From contig OZ004588.1 in assembly GCA_963924555.1 (NCBI GenBank), forward strand, positions 2,356,001-2,420,000: a stretch of 64,000 nt of DNA. Direction: 5' to 3'. Positions 28,301-64,000 of this stretch are shown piece by piece. Each line of letters opens with the position of its first letter. Position 1 is the first letter of the stretch. The notes under the pieces were generated by a model. The model did no database searches. It saw nothing but the letters and a program-made list of their open reading frames with translations, and was not told the origin of the DNA. Made by a program: the position numbers and the translations under genes. Origin of the DNA: Crambe crambe. Its lineage: Eukaryota; Porifera; Demospongiae; Poecilosclerida; Crambeidae.

Positions 28301-31300
28301 CTGGTATAAAGTAGAGTCTTATAGTAGCCACCATTAGAACCAACATGTATATAATCAGCTCTCTGCTGATGTCTGAAATCAGTCTGGAATCAACAAAGTT
28401 ATACTGTAGTTCCAGAAATTTCCAAGTTGAAATATTTCATATTTTTTAATTTTGGAAACATTATATACATCATCCAAAAATTTTCAACAATGAATTGTTA
28501 TTGCATCAGATGTGCGTGAATTAGAGTTCGACTAGTTACTGCATGTATGTATGTAATGGCAGAGTCCGTGGCTGAGTCACAATGTGAGATGGATTCCTGC
28601 ATCAGAGGCTATCATAAATACAGAGCAATATGGACAGCAGCTATTGGAGAGTCTCTTTGTTGTATTAGGGGAACCTACTAATACAATAGATCAATACACT
28701 GTTGCTGTAATTAGAAGTGGACTAGTTGTTGGACATTTGCCTAAGAAGATTTCAAGAGTTTGCTCACTTTTTTTGAGGAGAGGAGGTACCATATATTGTA
28801 TAGTCACCAACACCAGGAGATATTCCACAGACCTCCCTCAAGGTGGATTAGAGATCCCCTGTACTTTGCATTTTGAAGGGATCAATTCTTTGAGAAGACG
28901 CTTAAAAAAATGCATGCCCAATCTCAATTCATAATCAGTACTTAAATCATTGTTTTCATCTGCTAAAATTATATTATAAAAGTTACTACCGTACAGCGGT
29001 TTTTAAAAAAATATTTCGTTACGTAAAGAATTACGTAAAGAATTACGGTAGTCTTTTATTCGGTATGGTACGATTATTTTAGCGCATGTACAACAATATC
29101 TGCGGACTTCGCTTCACAGCTGCTTTTTCACTGGCTTGCATACTATTCTTTGCCTTCATTTCTTCAGGTATAGCCCTCTTCGCAATCGTGGCGACTTCTT
29201 AAGTGATGGAATCTAGCTAGCTAAGAAGAAAGTGGACCAGAAGGTTATGTAAGTTACATATATTGCATGCTGAAGTTGAATGTACGAACGTCTACATGTG
29301 GCTAAACGGTGGCTTTATATTGGAAATAGAAAAATTTTCGATAGACTGATTACTGAAATTACCGAATTTTTATTCCCACCAAGATTATCCCGCTGCAAGG
29401 TACACATTAAGTACATCAATCAATCACCGTTCACATCCACTTCTTCTATCTCTGAATCTTCCACACCAAGTGCTTTATTGTCAACATCAAGTGCTTGACA
29501 TATTCCAGCTTCGTTCACTATGAATGACAGATTATCAGCAATGTGCTGAACTGTCTTGACAAGCCATTCGGCACCAAGTTCTTTCATAGCTGGTAAACAT
29601 AGGTCAGCAGGTTCCAATCTTGATTCAACTGCTCTGCTATTTGACTTGAATACCAGTCTTGTAATTTTCGCCGAAGAAAATCCTTCACAGGCTTATTAAC
29701 AGAGATGTCCACTGGCTGTAATTAATCTGTGGTATTAGCAGGCAACAAACAAACATGAATCGAATTCTCTTCAAGAATAGCATTAACACATGGAGTGATT
29801 TGACCTTTAAAATTATCCATAATCACAAGGGCAGACTTGTCTTCCCCCAAATTGTCTCTTTGCTTTTCAACATATGGAATGATTATGGCTTTGATGTATT
29901 GAAACATCGTTTCTTCATTTGACCAATGTTTGGGTGAATGTGTAATATCCCAGTCACTCAGAAATTTGAAATGGGGGTGTTGAATGGGGATGACAACAGT
30001 TTGTCTTGACAGTGGAAGTGACATCATTTAGAAATTCAAATGTGAAAAATTGGCAACACTAAATTTGTTCTTTGTTGTGGTGGCTTTTTAATTGGACAAA
30101 TTTCATCCACACAAGAAGTGAATTTGCCCATGGTCTGTAGCCACCAAACTCTTCTAACTTGAACTTGTCATATGTCATCACAATACCTCGAGCAGCAGCA
30201 ACAACAATACATGCAGATACAACACCTCCAGCTTCTCTCAGTTTCAGCAAATATGCTTGCACAACCATTATCATAGGGTGGAATGTCCCCCTCTTAGAAT
30301 GACCCGGGGGTCATTTTACCCTAGGGTGAAGTGACCTGGGGTCACTCTAACCTAGGCTGGAATGACCCCCCTGGGTCACTCAGCCCTAGGGTATATTGAC
30401 CCCTCTAGGATGTAGTGACCCCCTGGGTCACTTTGCCCTTTGGTATAATGACCTCTCCCTCCCCGTCTCTACATAGGATGTGGAATTAGACAATCAAATC
30501 AATTACTTTGATGAACATCAAAACCACTTGATACTTTTTTTTCTTCCATGCTGCTGCTGGTGCTGTGACACATTGCTTATGAAATCACTGAGTCTTGGCA
30601 TGAGCTGCAACTGATAATCAGTTACAAAAATCTCAAAGGTAATTGCTGCCAAACTTGAGCTTTTTTCTGATTTTTCTGCTGTGGAAATGATGTCAGTGCC
30701 GATTTTCTAACAGTTGAAAAGATGCTTCCGAAACTTGTGTAATATATGCAACAGAGCTGCCATTACCCTGAATTTTTGTACATTGACGAAACATATATCC
30801 AGTGGAGTAGGAATAGGAAATTTATCTGGGGGAGGGGGGCAGAGACAATAATAAGTTAATCACAGTAATAGCAACAAAATTCAATCCTTCTGTCATTAAA
30901 TTGCATTAGCAAGCAGCAGTGAAATTGCTGGCATCACACTGCAATGACATGTAATTGCTTGGTGCTTGGTCTTACTTTCAATATACTGTTCATATTTGGG
31001 GGGGGGGGGGCAGTGCCTCTCCATCTATAGTATTGGGGGGCAGTGGCCTTCCTGCCCCCCCCCCCCTCTCCCACCATCCTACTCCACTGTCTGATATCAT
31101 AAATATAGTCTCGCGGGCCAATCCTTTACCAAAATACACTGATATCAACGGAAACTGTTGATATTAAATTAGCCAGGGGCTGCTAAAAAAACTGTAAAGA
31201 AATATTGTTCTGTGATCATGAAGTGCCGAATACTTATTAGAGCATGCGCAACTCACATGTACACTTTACTTATGTGGGGGTCACTTGACCCTGAGGGGGG

Positions 31301-34300
31301 TCATTTAACCCTAGATTAGAGTGACCTCCGGGTCACTACACCCTAGGGTAGAATGACTGGGGGTCACTATACCCTCCAACACCGTATCTAAATAGTCCAC
31401 CAGCAAAAGTGGCCTACCACGCTTTCTTTCAGGAAGCTCATCCACTCATTATTATCTGTTTTCCGTTTCTCTCTCACACTTTCAAGGTAGTCCTTGATCG
31501 AGATGGTACTACTGTTGATTTTCACCCTCAACTTTCAAGAGAAATGTGCAGCAGCTGCTGAAACTCCATGCTGACTGCATATCTGCCCATATCGGCACAA
31601 TCCTTAGGACTATATCTGAATTAATAGAATTGTCATCTTTTTCCTAAGCTAGCTTAGCTACCTACGTAAGTATATACTTCATATATGGACCACGTTTTTT
31701 CTGTTTCTTAGCTTCACCCATCACTTTGTCCACTTCCTTATTAGCGAGCGCTACTGCCCTCAAGGTCATAATGTTGGATAAAGATCCACTGGGGCTTGGA
31801 AGTCCATCCTTAGCCTTGAAATACTTCCGTAAAGACATGTCTTGAGTATGTCAGAGCAATGTGTTATCTATATTTCCATAATTTAAATTTTCATATAAAT
31901 ATAATTTCTGGTAAGTAATTTTATTCAGACAATTTAATTTCGGAATACTTTCAACTTCCAAAAATATTTTAGTTTTGAATTCTTCTGGAACTACAGTAAC
32001 TAGTATCAATACTCTAAGTGCTGAGTAGATGTTTTCAGAGCTATCTAGATCTTTGGGTTAGTAGGTGAATGCACTGCACATACAGAAAGAGAGCAAAGAG
32101 CATTATAGAAATGCAACAGTCACTAAATTCAGGACAACAAAGAGGTTCTATGTAACTGAAGTTATTCTGTAATGTATGGAAATGAGTTGTCTCACATAGC
32201 CAGCCTCTTGATTACAACACTGAGATCACTAGCATATGTTAGGAAAGGCTATCGTAGAGGTTTTGTCCATAGGACCAGAAGGGGTGTGATTGAGTGAATT
32301 AGACTCTTGCTCTCTAATACAATTTCTTTCTTTTTTCTTGGCTAGCAATAATCATGCAAAATGTTAAATTTTAATAATAAGGTCAGTCAGTCCTATTGAA
32401 GAGAACTGCAAGAAATGTGAACAAACTACGTATAGTAGTAAGAGACTTGCTGTATTCTATATTCTGGGGGAAAGTTTAGTATTATTTGGACAACATCTAG
32501 GGGATGAAATTTCCCCTACGCCCCCCCCCCCCCCTTATGGTTAGTAAGGGACACGAATTAGGTAGTTTGAGGTTTCCATGCAATGGTTAACAGTGACTTC
32601 TAAATGTTTGACCTCGTAACTTCCCCTCCAAGTCGAAAATCCTCTTATTTGTATGCTATGGTACATTATGAAAGAGCCAACTTTGGAAAAGTTGGACCAT
32701 CCACAGCTACTTTAATTAGGTATTGTGTCTCTGAGAGTTTGAGCTGAGCATTTGCATGTGATGATTATTTTACATATACACCATAGAATATGTGGTTCAT
32801 CATTGGAAGACTGTCAATTCAGCAGATTAGATCCACCCTTACATGCTCTTACCTGTACAGAAACTATTATGTGTGTCTATAATTGATTTTGTATTTAAAA
32901 TCATTGAGTGGGAAATGGGAGTGGTTATGGGAGGAGTATTTTAGTTCCTCCTCAAAGAAGAATCACATGTTTTCATTTTTTCTAGATTCACCTACTGAGC
33001 ATACAAAGTCACAAAAATAGCATACAATATGAGTGCATAATTTGTTTACTGTGCAATGAAGACATGTGAACTTGACGAAACCCATTTCTTACATGTTAGT
33101 GATGCAATTCTGCAATCAAGTGAATGGCTACACAAGACATGGAAGTGATGCTTTTAGCTAAGTAGAACCCTCACCTCCTAAACAGCCTAATTGATCCGTT
33201 GATAGCATAAACTTCCCCTCCCCTCCCACATTGATTATTAATTGTATTATCCTCACACACAAACATCCCAGTGCCTCACTCTCTATATGGAACCCTCTGC
33301 TTGACTAGTACTGTAAATTCTGTGGGTGTGTCTTATCTGAAGTGTTTGTGTCCTCCCCAGACCCCAGCTTCACCTCTCACAGTTTGCTGGATGCTCTGGA
33401 TACTGTGGGGGACAGTCACTTGAATTATGTATTTGAGATACCAGGGCCTATGTGGAGTGAGATGAAGTCACGCGAAGAGAAGATAAAGTACTACATGGAC
33501 ACTCATCCAAACACTGGATGGAATCACTTGGCTGGGACTCTTCTCTACTTGGAACAACAGACAGCTCTTAAGAAAGTGAAGGGGAATGTTACAGCTGATA
33601 AAGGTAGGTGTGTACATACTAAGTGAGGCAAGGGTGAATATAGTCATGTGATTGGTCAACAGTGGATACTCTTATGAATAAATGACTCTCCAAGTTCAGG
33701 ACTATAAATATGTTTTTCTCACTAGAACACACTCCACCATGTATCCACCACTACCAGAGTGTCTACACTCCAAAATACAATTTTTTAAGTCAACCTGATT
33801 TTGTTAGGAGTTTTTTTGTGTTTTTTTCTATTTTACACTTAAGTCAAATTATGCACTCCTTGTTGAGTGTACATATGGCTAGAGGGTGTGAACCAGGATA
33901 GATAAGGTTGTGCATCAGTGTGTGTGTGTGTTGGGGGGGGGGGGGGGGGGGGTAACAGCTGAAAGTTTATGGAAGGCATTATTTCATTATTAATAATATA
34001 GAAATGTGCAACACAAGTCTTTTTATGTCAAAGCAATTCCCACTATATACAGTACCTGTCATTCATCTCTTGATGTTAACACTAAGTGCATGCATACACC
34101 TCATATTGTCTTTAGAGCATAAACTATACTTGACTGAAGTAATACATGCTCATACTATTTCCATTTGTTCCTGTTACTTGTTGAATGGACTTGTTTTTGT
34201 TGCTCAGCTCATGTTTTATTCTCTATGTTCTCTCCCACAGACCCCTCCCTCACCCTCACTAATCTCACTCAGCTGCTGGAGGATGTGAGGCATTTGTTTT

Positions 34301-45197: not shown

Positions 45198-47787
45198 ACA
45201 TGCATAATAACATTCATCCGGTTTTTTCATTGACTACCTGTAGGTTCCGCTGAGTCACGTCGACTGTATAACAAGGCAATGAAGCAGGGACATGTAAAGT
45301 CCCAGATCAACAAAGCCCTCCTTTATGGGGCTCCAGGAACCGGAAAATCGAGTTCAATCGACCTTTTCGTTGGTAACCCTCCAAGGCAAGCCAGAATAAG
45401 CACTCCTCTAGCTGCTCGTCCAATTACAATGATACATATGGGTGTAACCAAGAAGGAGTGGAAAAAGCTTTCCTCAAAAGAACAGAAAAAAATTCTAGCG
45501 AGGGCCATATATGCTCAGCTTCATGCCAATGACAAAGATTCTGGCGAGGATTCTGTCTCTGATGAGGGATCTGGTGAGGATTCTGAATCTGGCGAAAATT
45601 TAAGTTCTGATACGACTCTTGAGCACAAAGAAGCTCATAGTAAAGAAGATAAGTCGACACGTGACGTACATCCACAAGTACACCCAGCAACTCATTCCAG
45701 TCCAACACTTGCTAGAAAACCAAAGAAAGGTTCTCAATCAAAGGAAAAGATTTCACTGCCATCCATTAGCACACATGAGGAACTAATGGAACTATTGGAC
45801 GAGATCTCCAAATCAAATGAAGCCTTACCTGTCTTCTGGAAGGTCAAATTGATCGACTCTGGTGGACAACCACAATTTCATGAGGTGTTACCTGTATTTC
45901 TTCGTCGCATGTCCCTCTACATATTCGTCTTCAAGCTGTCAGAAGAACTCGCCACCAAGCCCATGGTAGAGTATTTTGGGGAGGATGGGAAGCGTGTGGG
46001 GACACCTTACCGATCAGCTCAGTCCAACGAGCAGCTATTGAAGCACTGCCTTCGCACTTTGCACACCCACAGATCATCTCCCGATACTAAAGGTGAGTGC
46101 TCCAAAATCATGATCGTAGGGACCCACAGGGACGAAGAACACCTGTGCACGACCGAAACACGAGAGCAGAAGAATAAGAAGTTAGAAAAGCTGTTGCTTC
46201 CGATGTTCCGAGAGGAAGTCATCTACTACAAACTGGCAGAAAATAAGTTAATCTTTCCAGTCAATGCCAAAAATCCTGAAGAGCTCGATAGGGATACAGC
46301 TAAAGATATCCAAAGTGTAGTCCTAACAAAGTGTATGCCTGATCCCATTGATGTGCCCCTTCAGTATTTCTCTTTGGAAATTATCCTTGAAGAAGTCAGC
46401 CTTTCTTTAGATAGAGGGGTATTGAGCAAAGAAGAATGCCTTCGAGCAGCAGATAAGCTTTTCTTTGATGAGCATACACTGGATGCAGCTCTCCAGTTCC
46501 TAGATGAAATTTCATCGGTTTTTTATTTTCCCGAGGTTCTGGATGGTGTTGTATTCACTAACCCTCAAGTCCTCTTGGATAAGGTAACTGAGTTGGTGGA
46601 GATTACCTATTGTTTGAGGGAAAATGTTGGTTGTAAAACACTTGGTGCACTTTCTGGAGGCTGGCAGAAGTTTAAAGATCATGGCATTGTTAGCTTAGAG
46701 CTTCTGCAAGAGAAAGAGTTTAATAAGCATTATGTGCCTGATATCTTTACTCCTGTTGATCTGGTCAAGCTCTTTAGAAAGTTGCTCATCATAGCTGACT
46801 TTAGTGCTTCAGAGTACATCATGCCTGCCCTCCTTCCTGTTCTTGAAACTGAGAAGGTTCATGAGTATCGTGTCTCCAAAGATTCACTTGTAGCTCCTCT
46901 TGCTCTGGACTTCCCACTTGGAGGTCCTCGTCTTGGTACTTACTGCAGTCTCACTTGCTTTCTTGTCTCCAATGACAACCAGTTTCCTTGTCCTTGGAAA
47001 ATAGTGTTGCTTCCTCATTCCAACACTCCAGCTTGCCTGAATCGAAACTGCATCAAATTCAAGGTGCCAGGCTTTCCTGGCTCTGTCACTCTGATTGACA
47101 CATTTACACATTTTGAAATCCATATGCATACCGCTGAAGAAGTGTGCTGCAAGATGTGTTCCTTTGTCTCTCAAGCCATTTTTGCGGGCCTGAAGAAAGC
47201 AACTGTTGTTCTTGGCTACAACAACTCCATCCCTTCAAAAGCACTTCTTTGTCCGTGTGATGTTAGTGACCCTCATATTGCCACTTTTAGAGACAGAGTT
47301 TGGACCTGCAGTCGAGACTGCAATGTGTTTGGAGTGCTTACTTCTAGACAATCACTATGGTGTGAACAAGAACATTATTCCTCTACAAATGGTATGTCCA
47401 TACATACATAAACACATATACATACATTCATATATACATACATACATACATACATACATAGCTACATTAATTCTATCTTCCTTGAATTTGATTGTTTTGC
47501 ATGTGCATGCAGCTCCATTGGACTTGAAGACTGTTCGTACTGCTTTGTGGGATGCCAGGTGCAAGTGGTATGACATTGGAGTGGAACTCGACTTGGACAC
47601 AGCAACTCTTGACTCGATCAACACTACTCACTGTAAACAAGTGGAGGACTGTTTTCGAGAGATTCTTTCTAAATGGCTTGAGGTGGCAACACCTTGTCCC
47701 TCGTGGAAGGCACTGGTTAAAGCCCTGAGGTCTCCTGCTGTGGACTTTCCTCAAGTAGCCTCTAAGATTGAAAGCAAGTACATTTGA
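45002..47787 (+). CDS. Roc-COR-like GTPase with C-terminal death domain
   Basis: Exons are 45002-45014, 45244-47391 and 47513-47787, with phase 1 introns, giving 811 aa. The first exon adds only MVKK plus a split Gly; if it is wrong, translation would start at ATG 45279. Visible motifs: P-loop GAPGTGKSS (about 33-41), an acidic/Ser linker (about 103-176), LIDSGGQPQFHE with the Asp-x-Gly-Gly-Gln switch (about 207-218), VGTHRDE as the guanine-specificity motif (about 296-302), and NAK (345-347). A COR-like region follows, then a Cys-rich stretch (about 570-715), and finally a death domain (721-811) with CPSWKALVKAL. Roc-COR proteins are GTP-switched signalling scaffolds, and the death domain suggests immune or cell-death signalling. 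No stop or frameshift was seen. Intron 2 carries (CATA)n. Confidence 0.85.
47513..47787 (+). CDS. last exon: death domain of the Roc-COR protein
   Basis: Begins after TGCATGCAG with APLDLKTVRTALWDARCKWY, then IGVELDLDTATLDSI, FREILSKWLEV, CPSWKALVKAL and a final VASKIESKY, stop TGA. All six helices can be placed. It differs clearly from the death domain of the 62.3 kb paralogue although the GTPase parts are nearly identical, so the last exon may have been swapped. No AATAAA was seen in the first 150 bp downstream. Confidence 0.85.
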
Positions 47788-62316: not shown

Positions 62317-64000
62317 TTATTGCTTGACTTCTGCTATCGATTTTGCTAGTTCACTCAATCCAATGTCTTCAAGTACAGCAATTAGAGTCTTCCATGAAAC
62401 AGGCTTTTTCCCATCCCCACTCAGCCATTTTCTGAAGATTTCGCAATTGATATCTTGTGCATTATATCTCAACTCTTTTTGCAAGGCACTAATACGAGCA
62501 CCAGTGGCATCTTCAAGCAAGAAAGTTCCTAGTTTGAAATATTTAGTTCCAATTTCTTCAGCCAAATCAACTTTGGAATCTTTTAGAGGGAAGCAAATGA
62601 TTTCCATCATAGTAGGAGTTGAAGAGGCAGGAGCTCCTGCAAATGAAAATTCCATGATAAAGATAAGACTAAAATTATCAAAAGTCAAAGCAGTGAAGGA
62701 AGACACTAGCTAAATTAATAATAATAAAACTAGACAATAAGTCAAGGATGTAAATTTGACCAACCTTTCATAGGAGAATGATCTGGTTGATCACACCACA
62801 GCAGGTGTCTAGGAGTGAGATCTCCAAATACTTTGTTATCTCGACTGCATATCCAGAGACCATCCCCGAAAGTGGCAACATGGGGATCTTTAGCCCCACA
62901 AGGACAAAGAAGTGCTTTCGAAGGGATCGAGTTGTTGTACCCAAGAACTATCATGGCTTTCTTTAGACCTGCAAACACAGCCTGAGAGACAAAAGAGCAG
63001 AGCTTGCTACAAACTTTCTCGGCAGTGTCATCCACATGGATCTCAACATGAAAGAATGTGTCAATCAGAGTGACTGAGCCAGGAAAGCCAGGTACCATGA
63101 ATTGGGTGCAGTTTCTATTCAGGCAAGCTGGAGTGTTGGAAGGAGGAAGCAACACTATTTTCCAAGGACGGGGAAACTGGTTGTCATTAGAGATAAGAAA
63201 GCAGGTAAGACTGCAGTATGTACCGAGACGAGGACCTCCAAGTGGGAAGTCCAGAGCAAGAGGAGCTACAAGTGAATCATTAGAGACACGATATTTATGA
63301 ACCTTCTCAGTTTCAAGAACAGGAAGGAGGGCAGGCATGATGTACTCTGAAGCACTAAAGTCAGCTATGATGAGCAACTTTCTAAAGAGCTTGACCAGAT
63401 CAACAGGAGTAAAGATATCAGGCACATAATGCTTATTAAACTCTTTCTCTTGCAGAAGCTCTAAGCTAACAATGCCATGATCTTTAAACTTCTTCCAGCC
63501 TCCAGAGAGTGCACGAAGTGCTTTTCCACCAACCTTTTCTCTCAAGCAATAGGTGATCTCCACTAACTCGGTTACCTTATCCAAAAGGACTTGAGGGTTA
63601 GTGAATACAACACCATCCAGAACCTCGGGGAAATAAAGACTGACGAAATTTCATCTAGGAACTGGAGAGCTGCATCCAGTGTATGCTCATCAAAGAAAAG
63701 CTTATTTGCTGCTCTAAGGCATTCTTCTTTGCTCAATACCCCTCTGTCTAAAGAAAGGCTGACTTCTTCAAGGATAATTTCCAAAGAGAAATACTGAAGG
63801 GGCACATTAATGGGATCAGGCATACACTTTGTTAGGACTACACTTTGGATATCTCTAGCTGTACTCTTATCAAGCTCTTCAGGATTTTTGGCATTGACTG
63901 GAAAGATCACCTCATTTTCTGCCAGGTTGTAATAGACGACTTCCTCTTGGAACATCGGCAGTAACAGCTCTTCTAACTTCTTGTTCTTCTCCTCTCTTGT
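62317..64000 (-). pseudogene. second Roc-COR-death gene, frameshifted, cut by window edge
   Basis: Exon 2 runs from the window edge to 62,765 and exon 3 from 62,636 to the stop at 62,317, with a phase 1 intron (donor AAAG/GTTGGT, acceptor TTTGCAG). The visible part starts at THRDE-proximal sequence (TREEKNKKLEELLLPMF) and is very close to the plus-strand gene through the COR-like and Cys-rich regions. One base is missing near 63,630-63,640: where the intact gene reads SSVFYFPEVLDG, this copy shifts to SSVFISPRFW and soon stops. The frame recovers as DKVTELVEITYCLRE. The last exon encodes a different death domain (EEIGTKYFKLGTFLLED, VSWKTLIAVLEDIGL). It is a pseudogene unless the lesion is a base-calling error. 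Confidence 0.8.

Follow-up and report, generated by a model that had tools for sequence, protein, structure and literature searches.

The locus examined here raises the question whether a gene for a HIRAN domain can belong to a pogo-type DNA transposon or merely travels within it as freight. The stretch analyzed, called the window in the following, comprises 64,000 nucleotides of the sponge Crambe crambe (positions 2356001-2420000 of contig C11, OZ004588.1). Judged from its sequence, the segment 28404-31996 of the window is a dead copy of a two-gene, TA-flanked transposon of the pogo superfamily with a length of 3593 bp. The original prediction for this DNA had proposed its HIRAN open reading frame (ORF) to be either cargo or an accessory factor. 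After a search of the genome (143 Mb in 119 contigs, one species), the HIRAN gene can be regarded with high confidence as a resident accessory gene of the transposon lineage. This assignment is based on copies bounded by terminal inverted repeats (TIRs) that lie in different flanking sequences and keep the gene at the same place and in the same orientation, on purifying selection, and on correlated distances of the HIRAN and transposase sequences. The accessory part of the prediction therefore stands, and the cargo part was given up in view of the selection and the conserved place.

Independent elements with a convergent HIRAN gene

Three elements on contigs C5, C6 and C13 (L030, L031 and L032; 2312, 2123 and 2281 bp) are bounded by TA at either side and differ in their flanks. 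Their ends read CCGTAATTTGGGAAATTTTCG and agree over 21 bases, with one base off in the left end of L030. Each of them carries a HIRAN frame of 129 codons and, convergent with it, a transposase frame of 509, 465 and 505 codons, respectively. An element of 2337 bp on C6 (L022/L084) has CCGTAGTTCCAGAA at both ends and TA outside. Among ten further loci, both ends with TA were located in six (L074, L077, L078, L079, L017 and L072) and a single end in four (the left one in L073, L075 and L076, the right one in L080, whose left end lies outside the stretch examined). Both ends with TA were found together with a convergent HIRAN gene in nine elements: L030, L031, L032, L022/L084, L074, L077, L078, L079 and L017/L081. 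The further elements measured 2046-2897 bp. L080 was considered as the carrier of a different HIRAN and rejected as such, as its HIRAN is merely interrupted by an insert of 323 bp; its transposase frame comprises 507 codons.

Across the families, about 110-190 bp separate the left end from the start of the HIRAN domain, and the transposase starts near the right end. In many diverged families, a left end that begins with TACCGTA is located ahead of the HIRAN start. The motif TACYGTA was located within 300 bp upstream of HIRAN in 18 of 27 loci and once in the downstream control stretch; these 27 are the loci matching the local HIRAN profile among 30 examined, three of them weakly, and the variant TACCATA of L030 was not counted. 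A comparable arrangement is known from MuDR, in which two genes start near opposite ends and converge and the second encodes a helper, although the transposase and the second protein of MuDR are both unrelated to those described here. Both the window copy and L080 contain nested inserts, which could suggest that HIRAN stems from a different mobile element that inserted repeatedly beside pogo transposases. This explanation is hardly credible, as HIRAN lies within one TIR pair in nine elements, faces the transposase and shows distances correlated with it.

For genome-wide counts, matches at 1.5-3.85 Mb of C11, where copies of the window element form an array, were dropped. The 99 merged HIRAN loci off this array are a lower bound, and two entries of already counted loci were left out. 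HIRAN matches were scored for 99 of 99 in one search and for 150 of 271 in another, DDE_1 candidates for 150 of 248, and related-transposase matches for 84 of 526 first-look candidates in one search and 85 of 255 in another. Among the matches listed, 30 of the 99 HIRAN loci are within 3 kb of a DDE_1 match (24 of them convergent), compared to 0.59 expected pairs under the assumption that DDE_1 matches are evenly spread. A DDE_1-type transposase is present within 4 kb of 44 of the 99 loci, convergent in 37 and otherwise arranged in seven. This count used 133 DDE_1 entries, 36 of the 37 off-array transposase loci and 13 of 87 further transposase entries; C11:5538455, a transposase locus without HIRAN, was excluded.

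Viewed from the transposase side, a convergent HIRAN was detected at 31 of the 37 off-array loci found with related transposases; whether other copies hold the gene at the same place was a check proposed at the outset. Five of the six loci without HIRAN are pieces of 390-696 bp. The sixth, L072, is a whole element with matching ends, TA and a transposase frame of 488 amino acids but without a HIRAN match, and was the only candidate for a full-length sister lacking HIRAN, the kind of element that the original prediction had named as counterevidence. Its left part encodes the C-terminal part of a protease domain, with 40-50% identity to L074, L075 and L079, where this domain is linked to HIRAN. 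Because this part of the HIRAN-linked protease is still encoded, L072 reads as a deletion derivative and was rejected as a HIRAN-less sister.

Comparison of ten HIRAN frames yielded proportions of synonymous differences (pS) of 0.55-0.88 and of nonsynonymous differences (pN) of 0.21-0.39 in 44 of 45 pairs; the 45th pair is near-identical. As synonymous sites are saturated, pS and pN were used in place of a strict ratio of nonsynonymous to synonymous substitution rates (dN/dS), which was 0.12-0.38 wherever a finite dS was obtained. The saturation of synonymous sites in the presence of a conserved protein indicates that HIRAN is under long purifying selection, and the dN/dS check proposed for HIRAN copies thus turned out in favor of a maintained gene. 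The distances of HIRANs and transposases are correlated (Mantel r 0.88 for 15 elements and 0.84 for the 13 elements of clade A alone, each with p = 0.0001 and 9,999 permutations). In the transposase tree, which is based on 166 columns and rooted at the midpoint, the window's relatives belong to clade A (16 sequences, support 99); clade B comprises three sequences and has a support of 80. Between the two clades, transposases share 22-31% and HIRANs 35-52% identity. The opposite side of the tree, separated with a support of 100, is formed by a chosen sample of 19 HIRAN-less DDE_1 sequences together with L010, a member of a family that we take to be Tigger-like. In L077 of clade B the HIRAN frame is broken by a stretch with GT-AG limits, read by eye as an intron, without which the frame is kept.

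A host HIRAN gene that the element picked up accidentally and has since multiplied as a neutral passenger would agree with the decay of the window copy and of many array copies. It would also agree with the presence of HIRAN in the Tigger-like L010-L012 and its absence from the 2 kb examined of the C18 sequence that is closest to them in the tree, which indicates that gain or loss of HIRAN can happen. Such a passenger is nevertheless very unlikely to have kept one place and orientation beside transposases that are only 22-31% identical, to be under purifying selection, and to mark a branch so clearly split from the HIRAN-less sequences and L010.

The window copy and its array on C11

The features of the window copy are the following.

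28402-28403, no strand: left TA target-site duplication, from the sequence
28404-28425, plus strand: left terminal inverted repeat, beginning CTGTAGTTCCAGAA; the C6 relative L022 reads CCGTAGTTCCAGAA
28556-28934, plus strand: HIRAN gene with one frame change near 28667-28670 and the stop codon at 28932-28934
28963-29401, no strand: stretch missing from the C6 relative, holding TACCGTACAGCGG at 28987
29423-29979, minus strand: C-terminal part of the transposase; DDE_1 match from the frame 29725-30027
29987-30295, minus strand: middle part of the transposase, from protein alignment, with approximate borders
30266-31380, no strand: stretch of about 1.1 kb missing from the C6 relative, with many GGGTCACT.. 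ACCCTAGGG repeats and long G/C runs
31371-31838 (approximate), minus strand: N-terminal part of the transposase, from protein alignment
31975-31996, minus strand: right terminal inverted repeat (TTCTGGAACTACAG), from the sequence
31997-31998, no strand: right TA target-site duplication, from the sequence

The original description of this copy as a pogo-type, TA-flanked transposon agrees with TA on both sides, inverted ends and a DDE_1 match of the transposase frame (22.4 bits), which is barely over the cut-off of 22. HIRAN on the plus strand and the transposase pieces on the minus strand converge within one TA-flanked element, as had been noted. The HIRAN start, predicted about 150 bp inside the left repeat, was measured at 152 bp from the left end. 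The HIRAN protein of L022 aligns to 28556-28669 and 28671-28913, which places the single frame change in the G run at about 28667-28670, so the frame is one change from being open, as predicted. The open part of the window HIRAN matches PF08797 with 18.7 bits (E 0.0016), under the Pfam cut-off of 24.7. The transposase proved to be far more damaged than HIRAN, again in line with the prediction, and is scattered in pieces. In its main alignable parts the window copy is 85-91% identical to the 2337-bp C6 element, the closest relative examined. It lacks about 0.2 kb of that element and has two extra stretches, at about 28963-29401 and 30266-31380. Because it holds TACCGTACAGCGG, the first of these stretches may be part of a different element with CCGTA ends that is nested in this copy.

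The original prediction had also suggested a search for sister copies by their ends. Such copies exist, but as a test the search is misleading: of 54 exact matches to the end CTGTAGTTCCAGAA in the genome, 52 (24 forward, 28 reverse) fall between 1.58 and 3.71 Mb of C11, in an array with a unit of very roughly 50 kb and varying spacing. The flanks of 38 loci were compared. All 37 array loci match the flanking sequence of the window; this number includes the window copy, and some copies enter it in two views. Two of these loci, apart from the window copy, are identical to it across 1200 bp of the left flank. The 38th locus, L065 on C6, has no flank in common with the window. The flanking sequences show that the C11 copies are segmental duplicates of one multiplied insertion, which say little about mobility. 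Counts of CTGTAGTTCCAGAA ends were therefore rejected as evidence of mobility, since copies from one array with shared flanks are not independent.

Eleven HIRAN matches on one strand were observed within 0.45 Mb at C1:3558392-4002967, with no transposase match near; this cluster is perhaps a second array multiplying a HIRAN relic. Elsewhere in the window, the frame 45234-47411 (725 amino acids) matches Roc with 18.1 bits, under the cut-off of 27, and an inverted relative of it is located at 62742-63650. By eye, both resemble genes for Roc-type GTPases that have death-like domains.

Family placement and variants of the HIRAN protein

Membership in the pogo superfamily was judged by a DDE_1 domain with a DDxD triad, TIRs, a TA duplication (TAA or TAAA in some Fot elements) and a length of 1.2-5.2 kb. 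DDE_1 is over the cut-off in L080, L077, L075 and the window frame, with the first D identified by eye in the alignment, and the lengths of all measured elements (2046-2897 bp, and 3593 bp for the window copy) are within this range. DD35D was observed in 16 of the 19 branch members examined; the pattern is unread in L015, L018 and L103. This spacing is described as the rule in Passer and is also inside the DD29-36D range of Tigger (PMC7386202). The branch shares with Passer a DDE_1 domain with 35 residues between the second and third D, short terminal repeats and the TA duplication, and L077 of clade B additionally shares HTH_Tnp_Tc5 (over the cut-off) and BrkDBD (under the cut-off) (PMC7386202, PMC9976928). 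Judged by these sequence traits, clade B resembles Passer within the pogo superfamily. In clade A, the DNA-binding motifs of Passer were not matched and hmmscan detected no DNA-binding domain in the two transposases scanned (L080 and L075). Because DD35D fits both Passer and the Tigger range and no DNA-binding domain was detected in these two, the window's clade A may be Passer-like or belong to another pogo family.

Passer has been described with one ORF (PMC9976928), a definition from which this branch departs by its added convergent HIRAN gene. With Tigger it has the superfamily, DDE_1 and a spacing inside DD29-36D in common (PMC7386202), but it differs by CCGTA/CTGTA ends, the convergent HIRAN and the split from the Tigger-like L010 in the tree. 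For pogo elements in general, one or two ORFs encoding transposase are described, and the terms HIRAN, Ulp1 and accessory are absent from the main text of that survey (PMC7386202).

The HIRAN proteins of the branch vary in their match to PF08797: L030 (28.9 bits) and L077 (24.9) exceed the cut-off, whereas L079 (24.0), L076 (23.1) and L075 (20.0) remain under it. The frame of L074 has no Pfam HIRAN match, its HIRAN being split over two frames. According to BLAST and inspection by eye, HIRAN is continued or followed by a Ulp1-like domain with an HW..D..Q..DCG look in L020, L021, L017, L033, L016, L074, L075 and L079. In L020, L021, L017, L033, L074, L075 and L079 this combination of HIRAN and a Ulp1/C48-like protease is convergent with the transposase. 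Among the three proteins scanned, Pfam C48 (cut-off 20.7) was exceeded in L075 (25.8) and L074 (21.9), and L079 gave no match. The HIRAN frames of the L030, L013 and L022 families contain no protease domain. Ulp1 domains are also reported from Ginger1 and Mutator transposons; in Ginger1 the domain is located at the C-terminus of the transposase, whereas here it comes after HIRAN in a separate, convergent gene (PMC2836005). Pfam identified no further DNA-binding domain and no motor domain in the HIRAN proteins scanned.

A different HIRAN is present in the Tigger-like family L010, L011 and L012 (on C5, C9 and C16), where it is located downstream of the transposase on the same strand. The transposase of this family shows DD34D. 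Both ends were seen in L010 and L012 (CAGTGGACCCTC, TA outside), which are 98.8% identical, and the identity of 98.8-99.3% among the three copies indicates that the family was recently mobile. By eye, the in-frame stops in its HIRAN fall in an apparent intron. A pattern-based scan of viral contigs with the HIRAN alignment gave five pattern matches, none of which was confirmed. L009 (C12:5967834) and L014 (C12:4132195) hold HIRAN frames that resemble each other and are closer to the canonical type; L009 has the top score among the 99 scored HIRAN matches (50.1 bits), and the pair may represent an HLTF-like gene of the host plus its copy.

A possible role at DNA ends

The HIRAN domain of HLTF binds the 3'-OH end of single-stranded DNA, and HLTF requires it for the removal of Cas9 from cut DNA (PMC11237066). 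As a dominant negative, the isolated HIRAN fragment hinders this removal, and its N90A-N91A form, a substitution that disrupts HLTF HIRAN function, does so much less (PMC11237066). A search of the PDB with the profile of the transposon HIRANs retrieved only the HIRAN of HLTF. All 12 rows of the alignment retain the residues at HLTF N91, D94 and G109, and 11 of the 12 the one at H110; a tryptophan takes the position of Y73 in all ten rows having this column; the HLTF residue numbers were counted by hand on the profile-PDB alignment. In contrast to HLTF, the transposon HIRAN is stand-alone or joined to a protease and is accompanied neither by a RING domain nor by an SNF2 motor.

On this analogy, it is an even question whether the HIRAN protein acts at DNA ends. 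Cutting by the transposase would expose 3' ends on the element and at the donor site. HIRAN protein might occupy these ends in the post-cleavage complex and shield them from HLTF-type translocases and from resection, so that reinsertion or orderly repair would be favored over disassembly. HIRAN would thereby act as a helper outside the catalytic core. This complete reading, a two-gene transposon with a HIRAN that shields 3' ends after cleavage, may equally well prove right or wrong, and a specific shield against HLTF is rather doubtful.

Several observations weigh against it. For 55 of the 99 off-array HIRAN loci no recognised transposase was present within 4 kb among the matches listed; a CCGTA left end was located at five of these 55, among the 30 loci examined for ends. 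The second kind of counterevidence named in the original prediction, HIRAN copies lying mostly outside such elements, may therefore still apply. The PDB match to HLTF is weak at the sequence level (five distinct sequences, E 0.053-0.083), and structure prediction of the window HIRAN frame (P0001, single-sequence) reached a pLDDT of 38 and was unusable. In HLTF, Y72 and Y93 line the HIRAN pocket in which a dinucleotide is bound (PMC4666394). These stacking tyrosines as well as N90 and R71 are not conserved in the transposon HIRANs, so binding of 3' ends is not assured. HLTF with a deleted HIRAN is reported to lack fork reversal, which a HIRAN fragment restores in trans (PMC4666394); a free HIRAN thus need not only inhibit. 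Finally, the Passer elements of fish, which are described with a single ORF, were tested in human cells together with helper plasmids for the transposase and are called "highly active" in the title of the report, so this family does not need a HIRAN (PMC9976928).

Other roles can be proposed for a resident HIRAN. It might act as a regulator by binding to DNA of the element itself, either the terminal repeats or ends that are single-stranded, and so adjust or restrain transposition. A short element-encoded protein of a DNA-binding type that is started separately from the other end would suit this role, and other transposons are known to be repressed by proteins that they encode. This possibility is considered unlikely, as Pfam revealed no other DNA-binding domain in the scanned HIRAN proteins. 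HIRAN might also direct excision towards replication forks, or have the donor gap repaired from a template, and thereby add copies. The restoration of HLTF fork reversal in trans (PMC4666394) points in this direction, and the HIRAN-Ulp1/C48-like fusions would fit SUMO-regulated repair, Ulp1 being present in Ginger1 and Mutator as well (PMC2836005). The transposon protein lacks a motor domain, however, and the L030, L013 and L022 families lack the protease in their HIRAN frame, so that this role likewise appears improbable.

A bolder proposal, to which only a low probability is given, regards HIRAN as a dedicated counter-repair factor that mimics the end-binding domain of HLTF and takes up the 3' ends in the post-cleavage complex, with the Ulp1 fusions adding local de-SUMOylation. 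If this were true, the host could not strip the transposase or resect the ends. HIRAN would have been recruited at least twice, convergently oriented in this branch and co-directionally in the Tigger-like family. Elements of this kind may also have left behind many of the stand-alone HIRAN genes that animals possess.

A literature search by titles and the beginnings of abstracts, to which Repbase and subscription journals were external, yielded, among the papers listed, no HIRAN linked to a eukaryotic transposon. The accessory role of HIRAN in this lineage suggests that the elements of the branch come equipped with a helper for dealing with cut DNA. If a deep branch has HIRAN as its conserved second gene, this would show that a simple cut-and-paste transposon can carry a handler of DNA ends. 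It would make directly testable how a transposon copes with the removal of its post-cleavage complex, and HIRAN-bearing transposons would offer a source for stand-alone HIRAN genes.

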